Assembly: GCA_020060105.1 (NCBI GenBank)
Contig: JAGVAV010000021.1
Location: 1 to 42,952 of the forward strand
DNA length: 42,952 nucleotides
DNA from: Candidatus Woesebacteria bacterium
GTDB taxonomy: Bacteria; Patescibacteriota; Microgenomatia; Woykebacterales; 2-01-FULL-43-14
Direction: 5' to 3'
The notes under the pieces: model-generated
Database searches by the model: none
What the model saw: only the letters and a program-made list of their open reading frames with translations
Told to the model about the DNA's origin: nothing
Made by a program: the position numbers and the translations under genes
Shown: piece by piece, positions 4,831 through 40,670 of the stretch
Numbering within the stretch: position 1 is the first letter of the stretch
How the letters are laid out: every line of letters begins with the position of its first letter

Positions 4831-5514
4831 TTATTGGCTGCCCCTTAAGGATTTGTCTTTGCCCTTCAACCACACCTTCTTGAAAAAGGGCATTGTGAGT
4901 GTTGACAGCATAAAGGCTCCTGCTGGCACTACCGCATTTAGCCACGGGCTTTGAACACCGATTGTCTGCAAATACGCCCCGATCGCGATGTAAGTAAAGA
5001 CTGCTAGCAATCCCCGTCTCGTCCAACTTATTTCCCAGGCCTTATCCGACTTGACCTTTTGATTCCTTTCCTCAATTTTTTGAATTCTTTGTTCGAGATT
5101 TTCCATATTATTTTCCATTATACTTATCGCTCCAATAATCCATTCTTCTCGTAAGCTGTCTTTCATATCTCGAACTTCTTTTAAGGTGAACCATTTGGCC
5201 TCCAGAATTTCATCTTTTGGCCAATCAAGTTTCCCACCAACTATCTTCGCTTCAAAAGCGTGTTTTGGAGGTGTACTAGAATGTGCTTGGAAAATACCCA
5301 GCTTACGAAGTAGCTCTACGTCGTAACCGATCTCTTCCTTTGCCTCTCTCACTGCTGTATTCTCGATGGAATCACCTTCTTCAACTTTTCCCGCTGGAAA
5401 ATTCCATAGACCATGAACTTTCGTCCCTGGACGATTTTCCTGCACAAGCAAATATTTGCCGTCTTGTTTAATAACTACTCCCGCAACTATATTTGTTTCG
5501 GCTAATTTCTGCAT
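4831..5514 (-). CDS. Nudix hydrolase fused to a coiled coil and two-TM domain
   Basis: This encodes 227 aa. Residues 1-130 are a Nudix domain: the box runs G-x5-D-x7-REAKEEIGY around residues 42-64, with Asp in place of the first Glu, and LWNFPAGKVEEG precedes it. Such enzymes hydrolyse nucleoside diphosphates linked to other groups; the substrate cannot be read here. Residues about 135-155 form a coiled coil (ENLEQRIQKIEERNQKV), followed by two TM helices (about 167-187, 192-210) and a basic tail, resembling a stand-alone small membrane protein I recall from CPR genomes. The gene begins 15 nt after secA and has no SD. A TAAAAT 6 nt before the ATG could give a leaderless transcript. Confidence 0.8.
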   Translation of the reverse strand: MQKLAETNIVAGVVIKQDGKYLLVQENRPGTKVHGLWNFPAGKVEEGDSIENTAVREAKEEIGYDVELLRKLGIFQAHSSTPPKHAFEAKIVGGKLDWPKDEILEAKWFTLKEVRDMKDSLREEWIIGAISIMENNMENLEQRIQKIEERNQKVKSDKAWEISWTRRGLLAVFTYIAIGAYLQTIGVQSPWLNAVVPAGAFMLSTLTMPFFKKVWLKGKDKSLRGSQ

Positions 5515-10208: not shown

Positions 10209-11327
10209 GTGAAAGTCGTTATCATTAATCCCACTTATAATGAAAAAGAAAACATCTCTCGCTTAATCCCGATTCTTCAAGAGGAATTTAAAAAGATTTC
10301 CCACGAAATGCACATTTTAGTTGTCGATGATAATTCTCCTGATGGAACGGCTGAGATAGTCAAAGACTTAATGAAGGTGAGTTCAAACATCCATTTAATT
10401 ACTGGTCAGAAGCAAGGCTTAGGAGCCGCTTATATTCGGGGGATGATCTACGCGATGGAGAAATTAGGAGCAGATGCGGTGATGGAAATGGATGCGGATT
10501 TTTCCCATAAGCCTGAAGACGTAAAAAGGTTGATCGCGGAGCTGGACAAGGGGTTTGATTTTGTTATCGGTTCCCGCTATGTTCCTGGCGGGACGATCCC
10601 TAGAGAATGGGGTTTCTTCCGGAGGATGAATTCAAAGTTTGGCAACATCTTTGCCCGTTTCGTGGCCGGTCTTTATCACGTTCATGACTGCACGGCCGGT
10701 TTTCGGGCTATTAAAACCGACCTTCTTAAAAAATTTGATTTAGGGAGTATTCGCGCTCAAGGGTACTCGTTCCAAATGAATCTGCTTTATCAGGCAGTAA
10801 ACCATGGGGCGAAAGTGAAAGAAGTTCCGGTTGATTTCATTGACCGAAAGATGGGCCAGTCCAAACTTGGCTTAAGCGATATTGCCGAATTTATGCTTAA
10901 CGCTTGGATGATTCGTTTTGAGCGTTCGGAAACTTTTCTAAAATTTGCCATTGTGGGCAGTTCCGGAGTTTTGGTAAACTTGGGAGTTCTTTGGTTTTTG
11001 CACGACGTTTTGAAAACTAGCGACTTAATCGCCAGTCCCTTCGCGGTAGAGGCTTCAATTTTTTCTAACTTTGTTTTAAATAATTACTGGACTTTCGGGG
11101 GTAGGAATCGATATGTGACAGACCGTTTTTTCAAAAAATTTGTCAAATTTAATCTTGTTTCGCTAACGGCTTTGGTTATCACTTTCTCGATTTTCTATAT
11201 CTTAACCCGCTTCTTTGGAGTGTATTATTTGCTTGCCCAAATGGGGGGAATCGCTTTGGCGATGTTTTGGAATTACTTTGTCAATCTTAATTGGACATGG
11301 AATATAAAATCAAATATTAAAGAGTAA
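10209..11327 (+). CDS. Polyprenyl-phosphate mannosyltransferase-like GT2 with GtrA domain
   Basis: This encodes 372 aa. Residues 1-220 are a GT2 domain of the dolichol-phosphate-mannose synthase type (NPTYNEKENI, VVDDNSPDGT, metal-binding DAD at about 95-97, GSRYVPGG). Residues about 240-365 hold four TM helices of a GtrA domain (FAIVGSSGVLVNLG, NNYWTF, FWNYFVNLNWTW). The family moves a hexose from a nucleotide sugar to undecaprenyl phosphate at the membrane, supplying lipid-linked sugars to GT-C enzymes such as those at 20244, 22135 and 40658. The start is set to GTG 10209, because the promoter -10 overlaps the ATG at 10197 and the protein then begins VKVVIINPTYNE. The mRNA is probably leaderless. 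Confidence 0.9.
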   Translation: MKVVIINPTYNEKENISRLIPILQEEFKKISHEMHILVVDDNSPDGTAEIVKDLMKVSSNIHLITGQKQGLGAAYIRGMIYAMEKLGADAVMEMDADFSHKPEDVKRLIAELDKGFDFVIGSRYVPGGTIPREWGFFRRMNSKFGNIFARFVAGLYHVHDCTAGFRAIKTDLLKKFDLGSIRAQGYSFQMNLLYQAVNHGAKVKEVPVDFIDRKMGQSKLGLSDIAEFMLNAWMIRFERSETFLKFAIVGSSGVLVNLGVLWFLHDVLKTSDLIASPFAVEASIFSNFVLNNYWTFGGRNRYVTDRFFKKFVKFNLVSLTALVITFSIFYILTRFFGVYYLLAQMGGIALAMFWNYFVNLNWTWNIKSNIKE

Positions 11328-11400
11328 ATATCAAAACTACATATCAAGAATTAAAGATTTAAAAAATTTTTACTCTTTGCATTTTGATTTTTAATATTTA
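11305..11400. repeat. AT-rich palindromic element, family 1
   Basis: AAAGAGTAAA (11319-11328) faces TTTACTCTTT (11369-11378), with AATATT and TTTTGATT stretches outside. The stop codon of the preceding gene lies in the left arm. The inner sequence CAAAAC-x-x-CATATCAA recurs in the copy at 15940-16020. Confidence 0.5.
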
Positions 11401-11412
11401 AGGGGGTGTGTT

Positions 11413-14991: not shown

Positions 14992-15936
14992 ATGAAAGTA
15001 GTGGTCATTGGCGGAGGGACTGGGACTTACGCTGTACTATCTGGTCTAAAGAAGTTTCCCGACGTTGAACTGACGGCGATTGTCACGATGATGGACAGCG
15101 GAGGCAGTTCAGGGCGATTGCGGGACGAATTTGGCCATTTGCCTCCGGGGGATGTTCGTAAATGTTTAGTCGCCTTAAGCAACGAGGATTTAATTTTACG
15201 CCGATTATTTAATTTTCGGTTTGAGGAAAACTGTTCCTTAAATGGCCACAGCTTTGGAAATTTGTTTTTAACCGCCTTGACGGAGATTACCGGCGATACG
15301 GCAAAGGCAATTGAAGAAGCTTCAAAAATACTGGCGATTAAGGGTCGGGTCCTGCCAGTGACTCTTACTAATACCACTCTTTGCGCCAAACTGACTGATG
15401 GGAGCGTTATTCGAGGGGAAACGAATATCGATGTTCGCAAAGAAAAAACTGAAGCTATGATTGACTCTGTTTACTTAGACCCTCAAGCTTTGGTCTTTCC
15501 TCTCGTGGTCACGGCTTTGAAAGAGGCGGATTTGATTGTCATCGGGCCGGGTGACCTCTACAGCAGCATTATCCCTAACCTTTTAGTTAAGGGTGTTCCG
15601 GAAGCGGTTAAAGTTTCTAAAGCGAAAAAAGTTTACGTGGTTAATCTGATGACAAAGCACGGCGAATCGGATGGTTTCGGAGCCTCGGACTTTATCAAAG
15701 AAGTCCTCAAATATTTAGGCCCGGGAACGAAAATTGATGCGGCGATCGTTAACAAAGGGAAAGTTGCCCCAGAACAAATGCAAGACTATGAAAAAGAAAA
15801 GGCCTTTCCGGTTAAATATGATTTCTTAGAGTGCCAAAAACTGGTTGGCCGGGTGATCTGGTGTCCCTTAGCCTTTTCCGGGAAACTTTACCGGCACGAT
15901 CCGGAGAAATTGGCAAGAACGATTTTGGGAATATAA
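14992..15936 (+). CDS. YvcK-family gluconeogenesis factor (CofD-like fold)
   Basis: This encodes 314 aa. The N-terminus has GGGTGTYAVLSGLKK (about 7-21), then MMDSGGSSGRLRDEFGHLPPGD (in part, about 34-55), GHSFGNL, TNIDVRKEK and VIGPGDLYSSIIPNL. These are signature segments of the YvcK/UPF0052 family, nucleotide-sugar-binding proteins that direct carbon to cell-envelope precursors in Firmicutes. The ATG directly follows the galE stop (TAAATG), with GAGGG before it, so translation is coupled. Its place beside UDP-sugar enzymes and GlmS fits a regulator of envelope precursor flow, which is inference. Confidence 0.88.
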   Translation: MKVVVIGGGTGTYAVLSGLKKFPDVELTAIVTMMDSGGSSGRLRDEFGHLPPGDVRKCLVALSNEDLILRRLFNFRFEENCSLNGHSFGNLFLTALTEITGDTAKAIEEASKILAIKGRVLPVTLTNTTLCAKLTDGSVIRGETNIDVRKEKTEAMIDSVYLDPQALVFPLVVTALKEADLIVIGPGDLYSSIIPNLLVKGVPEAVKVSKAKKVYVVNLMTKHGESDGFGASDFIKEVLKYLGPGTKIDAAIVNKGKVAPEQMQDYEKEKAFPVKYDFLECQKLVGRVIWCPLAFSGKLYRHDPEKLARTILGI

Positions 15937-15939
15937 AGA

Positions 15940-16020
15940 AAAATCAAGTCTCAAAAATCAAAAAAAATATTTGATCTTTGATATGAGGTTTTGCTTTTCG
16001 CATTTTACTTTTTGATTTTG
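15940..16020. repeat. AT-rich palindromic element, family 1
   Basis: AAATCAAG-(x)-TCAAAAATCAAAA on the left faces TTTTGCTTTTCGCATTTTACTTTTTGATTTT on the right as an imperfect inverted repeat. Read from the right it contains GCAAAACCTCATATCAAAGATCAAA, related to the 11305-11400 and 31929-31971 copies. It is the whole gap before glmS, so glmS has no SD. Confidence 0.6.
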
Positions 16021-16022
16021 TT

Positions 16023-31900: not shown

Positions 31901-31928
31901 GTCCCAAATTAAAAGCGCTACTTTATTA

Positions 31929-31971
31929 AGATCAAAGATCAGAACTCAAAGTGCAAAACCTAGTTTAAAAC
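31929..31971. repeat. Family 1 repeat, half copy
   Basis: By base-by-base comparison, 35 of 43 positions match the reverse complement of 36808-36850, the right flank of the four-helix-bundle gene, including CAAAACCTAGTT. No gene or opposing arm accompanies it, so it looks like a solo end. Confidence 0.7.
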
Positions 31972-31978
31972 GCTAAAT

Positions 31979-32054
31979 TTGATTAATGAATAACGATTAA
32001 CGATTAAAGAAAGAAGAAATATTCCTTAATCCTAAATCATTAATCTTTAATCAA
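31979..32054. repeat. GATTAA palindrome, family 2
   Basis: TTGATTAATGAATAACGATT (31979-31998, continuing to about 32011) faces its partner ending TTAATCAA at 32054; 27 of 33 positions match as an inverted repeat. It lies in the 200-nt gap before the next GT2 gene. Confidence 0.65.
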
Positions 32055-32102
32055 GTAGTCTATACACCCTTTAAAGATTTGTGTTTAAGAACTTTCTTAA
32101 CT

Positions 32103-36396: not shown

Positions 36397-36807
36397 ATGG
36401 AAACAGAAAATCAAAGTGTAAAGATCAAAAATCAAAACCTAACTAAAAGTTTAAAAACAGAAGTTAAGTATAGAGCGTTTTGTTTATCAATTGAAGTGAT
36501 CAGGTTTCTGGGAAACATTGACTCAAGGAATTATATAAGAATTATTACGGATCAACTGGTAAGGTCTACTACTTCTATTGGGGCAAATATAGTTGAGGCA
36601 AAAGCATCCGCTTCAAAAAAGGAGTTTCTGAATTACTTTCAAATAGCTTTGAAGAGTGCCAACGAGACAAAGTACTGGTTTGCTATGTTAAAAGAGCTGT
36701 TGCCTGAAAGAAAAGAAAGAATTGATGATTTCCTTAAAGAAACAGAGGAAATTGCTAAAATAATTGGAACTAGCGTTTTAACTATGAAAGATAAAAGAAG
36801 TCTTTAA
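36397..36807 (+). CDS. S23-type four-helix-bundle protein (TIGR02436/PF05635)
   Basis: This encodes 136 aa. The core (about 28-128) is four amphipathic helices with KYRAFCLSIEVIRFL, DQLVRSTTSIGANIVEAKA (family signature), KKEFLNYFQIALKSANETKYWF and EETEEIAKIIG-type positions. S23 proteins are encoded in 23S rRNA intervening sequences, and relatives (Avd) accompany diversity-generating retroelements. Here the first 18 codons (VKIKNQNLTK) are translated from an AT-rich repeat, and the inverted partner begins directly after the stop. No SD is seen. It lies between unrelated GT9 and polymerase genes on the same strand, so it probably inserted there. Confidence 0.85.
   Translation: METENQSVKIKNQNLTKSLKTEVKYRAFCLSIEVIRFLGNIDSRNYIRIITDQLVRSTTSIGANIVEAKASASKKEFLNYFQIALKSANETKYWFAMLKELLPERKERIDDFLKETEEIAKIIGTSVLTMKDKRSL
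36407..36451. repeat. Left family 1 inverted repeat, inside the S23 gene
   Basis: AAAATCAAAGTGTAAAGATC...ATCAAAACCTAACT, read in the + direction, is an imperfect inverted partner of 36808-36850 (about 28 of 41 positions by eye, with ATCAAAACCTA exact). It codes for residues about 4-18 of the four-helix-bundle protein. Confidence 0.65.
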
Positions 36808-36850
36808 TTTTTGAACTAGGTTTTGATCTCTGAGTTTTGACTTTTGATCT
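36808..36850. repeat. Right family 1 inverted repeat, after the S23 gene
   Basis: It starts in the base after the stop codon of the S23 gene and ends five bases before the ATG of the polymerase gene. Its reverse complement matches 31929-31971 at 35 of 43 positions. Confidence 0.7.
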
Positions 36851-36854
36851 ATAT

Positions 36855-39800
36855 ATGAAGAAGCTGCTCGAAAAAATTCAAAAAATCTGGCCTTGGGTCG
36901 TCGGAGGATATCTTTACCTCGTTTTGTTATTTCCAAAACTGGCGATTCTTCCCACTGCCTGGGGAACGCCAATAAGACTAGAAGACTTACTTCTTCTTCC
37001 GGTATTAATTACTACACTGATTTTACACTTCAGACCTAAAAGTTTTCCTCGTGAGACGTGGCCTTTCCATCTGTTTTTCCTGATCTTAACGGTAATTTTC
37101 TTCCTCTCAACGTTGATTGGAACTTTCCGTGGGTCTTTAGGCCGGCCTGATCTGGCTTTCATTTTTGTCTTGAGGATGGTCGAGTATTTTACTTTCTTTT
37201 ACCTCGCCTTTCTTACCTTTCGAAGTTTTAAGGCGATTTTTGTTTGGATCGCCGGACTAATCTTAATTGCACTCCCAATTGCTCTCTTTGCCATTCTCCA
37301 ATATTTTGGCGTGGTGGGGGGATGGGGGGGAGGTCAATTCGCTTATCAGTTTTTTAATGAAATACCTCAAGGAAGGGTTTTTTCGACTTTTTCAGGACCG
37401 TACGAATTGGGAGCATTTTTAATCATAATCCTTCTTTTTATCCTGGCTTTTTTTCCTTATGTGAAACAACTTTACCAAAAGTGTATCTTACTTCTTATTT
37501 ATTTATCTGGGGTACTAGCTTTATCCTATACTGGCTCAAGAATACCGCTTCTGGCTTTAGTGGTTGGCGGTTTGATTACTTTGTTTTTCTCTCCTTCTAA
37601 AAAGAAAACGAGTTTATTGCTCGCCCTTGCGTTAATCACTCCATTTTTCACCTCCCGAATTTTAGTGGAAAGATACGATCTTTTACTTGCTCACTTAGAA
37701 TTATCCTTTAATCGAGAGCCTACGGTTAGTCCGGTTCCACCTTCCTTAATAGGAACTTCCGTTGCCTACAACCTAATTCCTCTAAATAAGGAGCTTTTAG
37801 AAGCTAAAGAAGAAGGACCAGTTACTTCTGAAGTTACTTTGCCGGAAGGTAGCTTGAGTTTATCTTCTTTTTCGGCTTCCTTATCAGAAACAACTTCGGC
37901 ATCAACGGCGGCCACAACTTCTGCTACTGTGCCTTCAACGAATCTTTTAACAGAAGAAAAAAAGAGAGAAAAAGAATTGGACCCCTACCAGAGTCTTCCT
38001 AATCTGCTTAAGGCAGGCGGGTTTGAAAAGTCTGAAGGCTGGCAGTTGTTTGGCAAAGCTAAAGTAATTGAAAATCTAGAAAAAGCTTATGAGGGAACTC
38101 GCTTTTTGCAGCTGGAGCCGGATGAGGAGCCTCAAGGAGTTTCTTGGGAGATAAAAAACCTAGATCCGTATAAACGTTACCGGTTGAGTTTAAAGGTTTA
38201 TCGGGAAACTCCGGAAGTAGTTTTTCGGTTTGTGACAAATAACGAGGCAGATTGGTTTCCGGTGATGTCTTATCAGGGGTATCGGGGAAAAGTACCGTTA
38301 AGTGGTGTTGGACAGATTTACCTGAAAATTTCCAAAAACGCACCCTCGGATAATTGGAGCTTTGCCTCAGTAGATTTTGACAGCGTTACTGATCTTAAAG
38401 CATTTACGCCGAATAATCGAGTTATTAAAGGTGTGTTTCGGATTGATGACATTAAATTACAGGAGATCGGAGCGATTCACTCTTTAGTTGAATTGGCCGC
38501 TCCGGCTTCACCTAAACTATTCGGTCTTCCCATCCTGGATAAAAGTTTAGCTGGGAGAGTTTCACTCCAATGGCCGCTAGTGATGGCGGAATTTAAAAAC
38601 AGTCCGATTGTTGGAGGGGGAATGTCGGTAATGGGCACGGGAGTGGATGGGGAATTTATGACCTTACTAGCGGAGACTGGATTACTGGGATTTTTGGCTT
38701 TTGTTTCCTTCCTTGTTTTTATCGAGTATTGGTTGTGGAGAAAAAGTCGACAAAGCCTGGGTGTAAGCAAGATATTCTATGTTGCCTTAATGTCTCTCAT
38801 TGCCGCAATAGTAGTAGAGGGTGTTTTTGTAGATGTCTTCCGAGCTTCTAAAATTGCCAGCCTTTTCTGGTTTTTAGTTGGACTGGGAATTTCGTTTTCT
38901 TTTATAAATTCTGTTTCACCCAGGTCTTCTAGGGAAATTGACGAATGGATAGAGAAAAAAGTTCGCTCAAATAGGTTTTTTAGTAGAGCCTGGCTCTTTT
39001 TCGCTGGGATTAAAGCATTCCTCTTTAGCCGGAAGCCTTTGGAGTTTATTTTTGACTACCTTTTGCTTTTCTTCTTGGCTTTCAACGTTTTGTTTCCAAA
39101 AATTCCCCTTTACGGCACCGGCGTCATGGCGACTCCGATAAGGGTAGACGACCTCGTTACGGCGGGACTCTTGGGAGGAACGATCGTTCTAGGTTTAGTT
39201 TTGAAGAGAAAACTTTTGCCCTCTAAAGATCGTCTTCTTCTATTGGCGGCTTTGTTTGTAGGGATGATGGTGGTATCTTCGGGTTACGGGATAGTAACGG
39301 GAGTAGTCCCTGATTACAAGCTTCCAGGCTTATTTATTTTTCGCCAACTTGAGTATATGATTCCGCTCTATGTTGGCTTGGTTACCCTCCACTCTTTCAA
39401 GCAAATTAAGATTTATCTAATTACCTTTACCCTATTAGTAATTCCCGTGGCTATTCACACTTTTCTTCAACTTTATGGGATTTGGGGCGGTTATGGCGGG
39501 GGTTTTTACAACTACCAGTATGTTCGAGTGGATGATCGAGTTTTTGCTTCTTTCTCCGGACCCTACGAGATTGGTGCCTATTTTGTCATTACCTTAAGTT
39601 TGATTGCTGCTTTAGTGGTTGGCTTAAAAAGATGGTTTAGGGTCGGGGCAGTTTTACTTTTTGCTCTAGCCATTTATTCTTTTTCTTTTATTAATGCCCG
39701 AATTCCCCTCGTCGCTCTCTTTGTTTCCATGCTCTTTTTGATACCAGCAACGCGAAAGATTTTTACGCCCTTATTAATAGCTTTCGTAATTCTTGTTGCT

Positions 39801-40670
39801 CCGGTTTTTATTTCTCCAATTGCTCAGTATCGAGTTAATCAATTTATATCTGAAATTAACATGCGCTATTTGAAAGATATGCCTTATTTTAAGGACGATT
39901 GGTTTCAAACAAACATAAGAATATATATTGGCTCCACGGTGGATCGGGTAGATAAGTTTTACCAAGCACGCTCAGAGGGAATTAAGATCCCGTGGTTGTC
40001 TAACGATTCGTTTAATAAAGAAAAGACTGGTTCTTCTCCAGAAAAGACAGAAAACCAAGATGTTATTTCTCAAACCACTCCGGCCAAAGAGTCGGAAGGG
40101 GTCCAGTCGGAGTTGGTGATTTCTGAGCCTACTCCGGAAAATTTTCCCAAAGAAGAAGAGACGAATCCAGCCCCAACGCCCCCACCCCCTCCGATTTCAG
40201 AAACGAAAAGGTTATATGAGAGATTTGCCCTAAGCGATGGTTCTTTAAGTTGGCGATTGGAAACACATTGGCCAAAAGCCATTGAAACTTGGCAAAAAAG
40301 TCTTTTAATAGGATCCGGGATGTCGGTTGTGGGAATTGGGGTGGATAGTGAATATCTTACTCTTTTAGCCGAAACTGGTCTGGTGGGGTTAGTGATTTTC
40401 TCTTCCTTTCTCGGCTATCTTATTTATCGGAGTTTTTCTGTTTTGAGAAAAATCAATTTACAGTTAGATAAGGCTTTGCTTTCGGGAGTAACTGTAGCGT
40501 TAATCGGACTGGTAATCGAGGGTGTATTGGTAGACGTATTTCGCGCTTCTAAAATTGCCTATCTTTTTTGGTTTTTCGTGGCGGTGGTTATCGTTTCAAC
40601 TAAACTAGGACAAAATAAAAAAGAACAAGTGACTTTAGATCAACTTAAGGGGGAAAGATTAGGAAGTTAG
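36855..40670 (+). CDS. Tandem-duplicated O-antigen polymerase/ligase-like protein with a CBM-like insert
   Basis: This encodes 1271 aa in two homologous halves, each a Wzy/WaaL (Wzy_C-type) membrane protein. Matching landmarks: GGWGGG (about 155) and GGYGGG (about 878); VFSTFSGPYELGA (about 175) and VFASFSGPYEIGA (about 896); TGSRIPLLAL (about 226) and INARIPLVAL (about 946); MSVMGTGVDGEFMTLLAETG (about 588) and MSVVGIGVDSEYLTLLAETG (about 1156); VFVDVFRASKIASLFWF (about 658) and VLVDVFRASKIAYLFWF (about 1225). Half 1 has an extracytoplasmic insert (about 376-539) that resembles a carbohydrate-binding jelly roll (NLLKAGGFEKSEGW). Half 2 has a Pro-rich linker (about 1089-1116) there. It should polymerise flipped repeats or ligate glycan outside the membrane. 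ATG 36855 is preferred to TTG 36837, which is in the repeat. Confidence 0.9.
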   Translation: MKKLLEKIQKIWPWVVGGYLYLVLLFPKLAILPTAWGTPIRLEDLLLLPVLITTLILHFRPKSFPRETWPFHLFFLILTVIFFLSTLIGTFRGSLGRPDLAFIFVLRMVEYFTFFYLAFLTFRSFKAIFVWIAGLILIALPIALFAILQYFGVVGGWGGGQFAYQFFNEIPQGRVFSTFSGPYELGAFLIIILLFILAFFPYVKQLYQKCILLLIYLSGVLALSYTGSRIPLLALVVGGLITLFFSPSKKKTSLLLALALITPFFTSRILVERYDLLLAHLELSFNREPTVSPVPPSLIGTSVAYNLIPLNKELLEAKEEGPVTSEVTLPEGSLSLSSFSASLSETTSASTAATTSATVPSTNLLTEEKKREKELDPYQSLPNLLKAGGFEKSEGWQLFGKAKVIENLEKAYEGTRFLQLEPDEEPQGVSWEIKNLDPYKRYRLSLKVYRETPEVVFRFVTNNEADWFPVMSYQGYRGKVPLSGVGQIYLKISKNAPSDNWSFASVDFDSVTDLKAFTPNNRVIKGVFRIDDIKLQEIGAIHSLVELAAPASPKLFGLPILDKSLAGRVSLQWPLVMAEFKNSPIVGGGMSVMGTGVDGEFMTLLAETGLLGFLAFVSFLVFIEYWLWRKSRQSLGVSKIFYVALMSLIAAIVVEGVFVDVFRASKIASLFWFLVGLGISFSFINSVSPRSSREIDEWIEKKVRSNRFFSRAWLFFAGIKAFLFSRKPLEFIFDYLLLFFLAFNVLFPKIPLYGTGVMATPIRVDDLVTAGLLGGTIVLGLVLKRKLLPSKDRLLLLAALFVGMMVVSSGYGIVTGVVPDYKLPGLFIFRQLEYMIPLYVGLVTLHSFKQIKIYLITFTLLVIPVAIHTFLQLYGIWGGYGGGFYNYQYVRVDDRVFASFSGPYEIGAYFVITLSLIAALVVGLKRWFRVGAVLLFALAIYSFSFINARIPLVALFVSMLFLIPATRKIFTPLLIAFVILVAPVFISPIAQYRVNQFISEINMRYLKDMPYFKDDWFQTNIRIYIGSTVDRVDKFYQARSEGIKIPWLSNDSFNKEKTGSSPEKTENQDVISQTTPAKESEGVQSELVISEPTPENFPKEEETNPAPTPPPPPISETKRLYERFALSDGSLSWRLETHWPKAIETWQKSLLIGSGMSVVGIGVDSEYLTLLAETGLVGLVIFSSFLGYLIYRSFSVLRKINLQLDKALLSGVTVALIGLVIEGVLVDVFRASKIAYLFWFFVAVVIVSTKLGQNKKEQVTLDQLKGERLGS

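Follow-up and report, generated by a model that had tools for sequence, protein, structure and literature searches.

An S23 Gene between Inverted Heptamer Arms as a Probable Compact Mobile Unit with Gene-less Hairpin Derivatives

The S23 gene of the window (the whole 42,952-nt stretch analyzed here, one contig of a Candidatus Woesebacteria genome of 1.09 Mb and 97.9% completeness) probably belongs to a compact mobile unit of about 450 bp. This unit consists of the S23/IVP gene and two inverted, degenerate tandem arms of 7-nt words; gene-less hairpins would be its MITE-like derivatives, and its spread is, we infer, driven by S23. The S23 family takes its name from intervening sequences (IVSs) of 23S rRNA, for which mobility has been proposed but not demonstrated, and we read the window unit as the intergenic counterpart of S23-coding rRNA IVSs.

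This reading joins two old puzzles, the role of S23/IVP (the “four helix bundle protein” that is common among bacteria) and the origin of intergenic heptameric repeats, which are tied to each other by a dose-response and by empty sites. The loose old idea of the mobile rRNA IVS thereby becomes testable in cultivable genera, such as Dysgonomonas.

RESULTS

The S23 gene of the window and its arms

The product of the S23 gene is a true PF05635 protein (Pfam E value, 6.9e-20; 71.7 bits against a curated cutoff of 33.8) and also matches TIGR02436 (NCBIfam E value, 1.6e-24), as a sequence-only reading of this DNA had supposed. It has a solved relative (PDB 2rld; E value, 2.6e-13) and retains the family-invariant Q, R, N, and E columns. 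A glycosyltransferase-like gene stops 12 nt before the start of S23, and on the other side the right arm reaches as far as the next start codon; both neighbors are protein genes co-directional with S23. The inverted repeats that had been claimed around it are real: positions 36410 to 36458 pair with positions 36800 to 36848 over 49 nt with 71% complementarity, and the inverted match between the arms of this locus (L003) exceeds that with every swapped partner. The opening codons are likewise written inside the left arm; however, what had been described as an AT-rich repeat is not one fixed repeat but an array of degenerate 7-nt words (Table 1).

There is room for only the S23 open reading frame (ORF) between the arms, where Pfam finds no other domain or transposase. 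Rfam detects no rRNA in the window, so the unit does not lie inside a 23S rRNA gene. Compared with shuffled sequences, the entire unit does not fold better as RNA (z = -0.63). Within the order, no syntenic relative of the site was found, the downstream gene being too variable. That gene (36855 to 40670) encodes an internally duplicated, O-antigen-ligase-like membrane protein of 1277 aa, with halves that are about 32% identical and a repeat at the DNA level (38804 to 38878 and 40505 to 40579).

Table 1. Features of the S23 unit and of the gene-less hairpins in the window
Feature	Positions	Strand	Description
S23 / 23S-rRNA-intervening-sequence-protein gene	36397..36807	+	Four helix bundle, 136 aa
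Left arm, degenerate heptamer array	36400..36458	+	Reverse strand TTTTGAT TTTTGAT CTTTACA CTTTGAT
Right arm, inverted heptamer array	36808..36855	+	TTTTGAT CTCTGAG TTTTGAC TTTTGAT
ORF-less hairpin A	11305..11401	.	Window-S23 arm type; array 11367-11401; L003 match, 0/200 random foreign sets as good
ORF-less hairpin B	15936..16022	.	Window-S23 arm type; L003 match, 0/200 random foreign sets as good
Solo arm C1	31924..31971	.	Window-S23 type; score 29 vs L003, best foreign 16
ORF-less hairpin C2	31975..32057	.	GATTAAC / GTTAATC heptamers; self-inverted score 32; 28 vs L001, best foreign 24

Gene-less hairpins in the window's genome

The ORF-less relatives that the same reading had listed are present at 11305 to 11408, 15936 to 16022, and 31924 to 32057, each as a small inverted pair. 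The last of them had been given as 31929 to 31971. Its likeness to the unit holds, since 31924 to 31970 is 81% complementary (38 of 47 positions) to the right arm at 36809 to 36855, but it is part of a composite, the left portion of which has the arm type of the window S23 and the right portion that of L001. The window's genome has three S23 genes, L001, L002, and L003, the last being that of the window. All four window solos (A, B, C1, and C2) fit the arms of these genes better than those of three foreign S23 loci drawn at random, in each of 200 draws. Rfam assigns no known RNA family to the window solos. Of 200 shuffles, only 1 folds as well as or better than hairpin A as RNA (z = -2.7); the fold of hairpin B is unexceptional (z = -1.0), and hairpin C shows little or no folding beyond shuffles.

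A scan of 275 kb of this genome yielded 17 period-7 arrays, 12 of which have a nearby inverted partner, compared with none for periods 5, 6, 8, 10, 11, and 13 and one for period 9. The solo types largely correspond to the three S23 arm types: A, B, C1, and others go with the window S23, C2 and L249 with L001, and two solos in L244 with L002. When three genomes were considered, the solos that matched arms of S23 genes from their own genome at a p value of ≤0.05 amounted to 11 of 17, 30 of 42, and 11 of 35, with 5% expected. In another genome (G046), L252, L253, and L256 hold long composite heptamer strings of several arm types, partly mirrored and devoid of S23, which are nested hairpins.

We also asked which genes are enclosed by arm pairs lying 200 to 600 nt apart. 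S23 is the sole such gene, barring one composite at L050 and one rsmA case in which the array is inside the gene; two further S23 genes were recovered by their arms alone. At L116:1908-2244, a heptamer array lies within the coding sequence of an rsmA/ksgA-like gene and reads ...TLDPKPYTLYPKYK...

Heptamer arms across S23 loci

S23 was found in 104 of the 137 genomes of the window's class. We read the flanks of 43 S23 genes from this class; nearly all of them start in or just after a degenerate 7-nt tandem array, and the 3' flank of nearly all holds the reverse complement of the upstream 7-nt word, a word that varies between loci. At S23 genes of this class, strong elevation is confined to period 7 and its double, 14; period 8 is elevated at S23 loci in some other groups.

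The survey was extended to 186 S23 loci, 80 of which were named as belonging to Patescibacteria, Bacteroidota, Proteobacteria, Acidobacteria, Omnitrophota, and others, although names on metagenome-assembled contigs may be wrong, for example, that of the single archaeal locus, L156. Among these loci, which were selected by strong protein score and are not independent when related, and with array thresholds of our own, a strong period-7 array was located upstream of 109 of 186 S23 genes (59%) versus 35 of 271 control boundaries (13%; Fisher p = 5e-25) and downstream of 79 of 186 (42%) versus 43 of 279 (15%; Fisher p = 1e-10). Control boundaries were other gene boundaries within the same loci; the arrays are far nearer S23 than other genes, as would be expected if the repeats seen in the window belonged to the S23 gene. 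A period of 7 or 8 is found on at least one side at 149 of the 186 loci; in the remaining 20% or so, no array passes our threshold.

C makes up only 10% of the upstream arms and G only 11% of the downstream arms; thus, the strands are not equivalent. In comparisons with swapped partners, the upstream arm of 47 to 60% of loci scored best with the reverse complement of the downstream arm from that same locus, with 3% expected. In three S23 units (L031, L041, and L137), the arms are direct rather than inverted. Fixed terminal repeats are ruled out, given that the arms differ from locus to locus. Stronger constraint on the arms than on the ORF was not seen, the arms being not more conserved. Each element carries its own degenerate tandem arms of 7-nt, sometimes 8-nt, words, which turn over with the element.

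Array density, orientation, and rRNA-linked units

In partial and unequal samples (3 to 276 kb per genome), the density of period-7 arrays per 100 kb rises with S23 copy number, from 1.8 in genomes with none to 3.6 in single-copy genomes, 7.9 in those with two to five copies, and 21 in those with at least six, while other periods range from 0.3 to 3.8 per 100 kb with no such increase. The same trend is seen within a single genus, g27, where the density is 1.4 per 100 kb without S23, 14.2 with five copies, and 35 with eight; the S23 genes' own arms would yield only about 2 arrays per 100 kb in the richest g27 genome. Judged from their sequences, the solos bear the arms of S23 genes of their own genome, and their number is proportional to that of the S23 genes.

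Where S23 lies between two co-directional genes, it is in sense orientation in 121 cases and antisense in 2 (p of about 1e-33). This bias fits a transcribed unit that is tolerated in operons, and it could reflect selection or ordinary operon behavior rather than an insertion rule.

Fifteen S23 loci lack a coding neighbor on at least one side, and an Rfam search of seven of them placed one within an rRNA gene. Namely, at L097:2300-3130, in a related genome (G020), a heptamer-armed S23 unit is located in an insertion of a 16S rRNA gene, which links the intergenic and rRNA forms. Another insertion in this 16S rRNA gene contains a LAGLIDADG-like ORF (1437 to 2054; named by eye), and a second S23-like ORF is found in L097 at 5006 to 5392. 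In two other genomes, L074 (G026) and L078 (G046) have S23 units at one site near a 16S rRNA gene, which in L074 is directly downstream of S23 according to Rfam.

Related copies and empty sites

S23 pairs with at least 70% identity and no common neighbor have median upstream-arm scores of 15 to 35, relative to a baseline of 8.5. In the three best cases (L050/L099, L023/L034, and L001/L042), DNA homology starts in the left arm, stops in the right arm, and is lost beyond. L050 and L099 are in one genome, about 2.7 kb apart, with ORFs that are 90% identical; L001 is an S23 gene of the window's own genome.

The sdhA-sdhB junction houses many Bacteroidota S23 genes. This frdAB-like site is a recurrent S23 home (L143, L149, L155, L157, L163, L171, L173, L178, and L185) at which arms and word length, 7 or 8, vary. 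No single origin was found for all S23 genes at this junction; they fall into at least three tree groups. Of the Dysgonomonas species compared, nine have an empty junction, with 6 to 19 nt from stop to start, and eleven carry an S23 gene there. These S23 genes form three types, which have distinct arms and share 55 to 66% identity with each other and at least 74% within a type, with the exception of one decayed copy. Host proteins show about the same similarity across all of these species, and a sister pair, L222 (empty) and L223 (occupied), has flanks that are 96.4% identical. According to the Dysgonomonas species tree, occupancy requires seven changes, only two of which are forced given how weak the tree is. 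The otherwise empty junctions of L213 and L215 retain a single CTTGTAACT word, which looks like a footprint left by the loss of a type III unit.

Genus g27, which belongs to the window's class, offers a comparable intergenic site. G061 has no insertion there, G046 carries an S23 unit, and G026 carries a decayed S23 unit that has different arms and is oppositely oriented. At two more shared sites (L040/L044 and L036/L042), the paired S23 genes belong to separate parts of the tree. A clear target-site duplication cannot be read at the Dysgonomonas and g27 junctions, where the ends blur into the arrays. As read from these alignments, the arms are part of the unit, the unit is gained or lost whole between genes, and the same sites are hit repeatedly.

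These results bear on what the window by itself had suggested, a mobile element with MITE-like derivatives. That proposal turns out to be largely right and too narrow: arms are present in many phyla, and both empty sites and solos sharing arms exist. The orthologous empty and occupied sites that it called for were found in Dysgonomonas and g27, and the arms of the solo copies that it anticipated do recur at S23 genes in the same genome. The ends, which it expected to be consistent, are shared by related S23 genes at unrelated sites but have no fixed sequence.

DISCUSSION

Possible mechanism of spread

We infer that the S23 protein recognizes its own arms and promotes their spread. The protein, which is a pentameric helical barrel in solved relatives, would bind the repeated 7-nt words of these arms, and word repetition could provide avidity to such an oligomer. 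By holding the arm hairpin, S23 may help new copies of the unit, or of any gene-less hairpin bearing these arms, to arise elsewhere, the copying itself being performed by host replication or repair enzymes. When a sense unit lies among co-transcribed genes, RNase III might cut the paired arms from the mRNA, as it does for the rRNA form; insertion between such genes would then cost little. The putative recognition of the arms is weakened by the observation that they are not more conserved than the ORF.

No recombinase was found in the unit. If S23 drives the spread, this would be a mobile unit without any known kind of recombinase. A broader version of the idea, for which we see slightly less than an even chance, is that S23 defines a nearly pan-bacterial class of such units, each spread by its own protein as cognate hairpins of 7-nt words, and that this class is the source of the widespread heptameric repeats of bacteria.

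Alternative scenarios

The main rival to S23-driven spread is that the heptamer hairpins are themselves mobile, or self-amplifying, through some other host factor and that S23 is a captured passenger. The excess of solos over S23 genes (with 17 arrays counted in one quarter of the genome, against 3 genes), the lack of a known catalytic domain in S23, the faster turnover of the arms relative to the gene, and the existence of bare hairpins both alone and nested in each other all agree with it. Yet in genomes free of S23, array density drops to the level of other periods, even within one genus, which weakens this scenario; moreover, S23 is the only gene found between closely spaced arms, apart from the rsmA and L050 cases, and the S23 arms that solos match are those of the genome in which they lie. 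We therefore regard a passenger role as improbable. A quite different possibility is that S23 is an ordinary operon gene with nothing mobile about it and that the arrays are products of slippage or regulatory leaders acting in translation or RNase III processing. Heptamer arrays are indeed a known, unexplained class for which polymerase slippage is suspected (PMC4692102), and both the strong sense orientation of S23 with its neighbors and the reuse of sdhA-sdhB in many Bacteroidota would follow naturally. This scenario is already contradicted by the evidence from empty sites and copies, and we consider it very unlikely: different S23 types have inserted independently at one site, close relatives occupy unrelated sites and lose their homology within the arms, and the arms pair within a locus, differ between loci, and recur in the solos.

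The two remaining scenarios assign the movement to an enzyme encoded elsewhere. S23 could belong to a small retroelement served in trans by a reverse transcriptase (RT), like its structural relative Avd of diversity-generating retroelements (PMC10053308), and the sense bias would suit an RNA route. However, RT (PF00078) was not found in the window's genome, and 24 of the 137 genomes of the class have it; S23 is present in 19 of these 24 and in 85 of the 113 RT-free genomes, indicating no association. RT is thus rejected as the partner, and a retroelement appears highly improbable. Hairpins moved by host Y1 (REP-associated) transposases, as in REPIN/RAYT systems, are the least credible scenario, with almost no chance of being correct, even though 96 of the class's 137 genomes encode Y1_Tnp, that of the window four times. 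S23-positive genomes of the same order (G003, G006, G007, and G008) have no Y1 (PF01797), while the S23-free genome G027 has 18 of them and 0 heptamer arrays in a 15-kb sample. A Y1/RAYT partner is rejected as not required, and none is in the unit. As a separate observation, ten equal-scoring copies of one Y1 transposase are distributed over contigs C1, C6, and C10 to C12 of G051, likely a recent burst.

Comparison with known systems

The preferred reading, an S23 unit that spreads together with its arms, shares features with several known systems. As with DNA transposons and MITEs, copies are found at unrelated sites with homology stopping at the ends, and orthologous sites can be empty. REPIN/RAYT and MITE/transposon pairs also combine a gene-bearing unit with many gene-less hairpins that have matching ends. 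The analogy with REPIN/RAYT drawn from the window alone holds for this layout but not for the machinery: S23 has no known nuclease domain, and Y1 is dispensable. Furthermore, the S23 unit has no transposase, its ends are unfixed tandem arrays, and there is no clear target duplication. Avd is a structural relative, being a pentameric four-helix bundle; in contrast, no RT, template, or variable repeat is near the S23 unit, and RT is not associated with it. S23 genes have been noticed within cas operons, with no explanation offered (PMC3936711).

Intergenic heptamer arrays, sometimes inverted, are abundant and unexplained in Xanthomonas, Nostoc, Beggiatoaceae, and Microcystis (PMC4692102, PMC4679880). 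They resemble the arrays described here in being intergenic and in their turnover of length and sequence; these papers do not mention S23 and deal with one heptamer family each. Across the open-access literature searched, we found no paper linking S23 genes to both heptamer arms and solo hairpins. In the literature searched, the link between S23 and heptamers goes no further than one observation on an IVS: in the 23S rRNA of Coxiella, heptamers (GACAGAT) are located just before S23p, in an IVS that RNase III excises (PMC4990558).

It is to the rRNA forms that the unit is closest. Insertions in rRNA genes of the CPR encode 23S_rRNA_IVP (PMC11270868), in the same host group and with the same protein, and L097 is the matching case here; the passages of that report considered here treat them as rRNA insertions only and do not describe arms or intergenic copies. 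The 23S rRNA IVSs with an S23 ORF (Leptospira, Coxiella, and others) share with our units the protein family, the pairing of inverted ends with S23 in the loop, and the sense orientation, and that of Coxiella also has its tandem heptamers directly before the ORF (PMC4990558). They differ in that the window unit lies between protein genes and has long heptamer arms, which come in many sequences among S23 units. In addition, the S23 units described here occur together with scattered gene-less hairpins whose arms match theirs, and the units are gained and lost between sister species.
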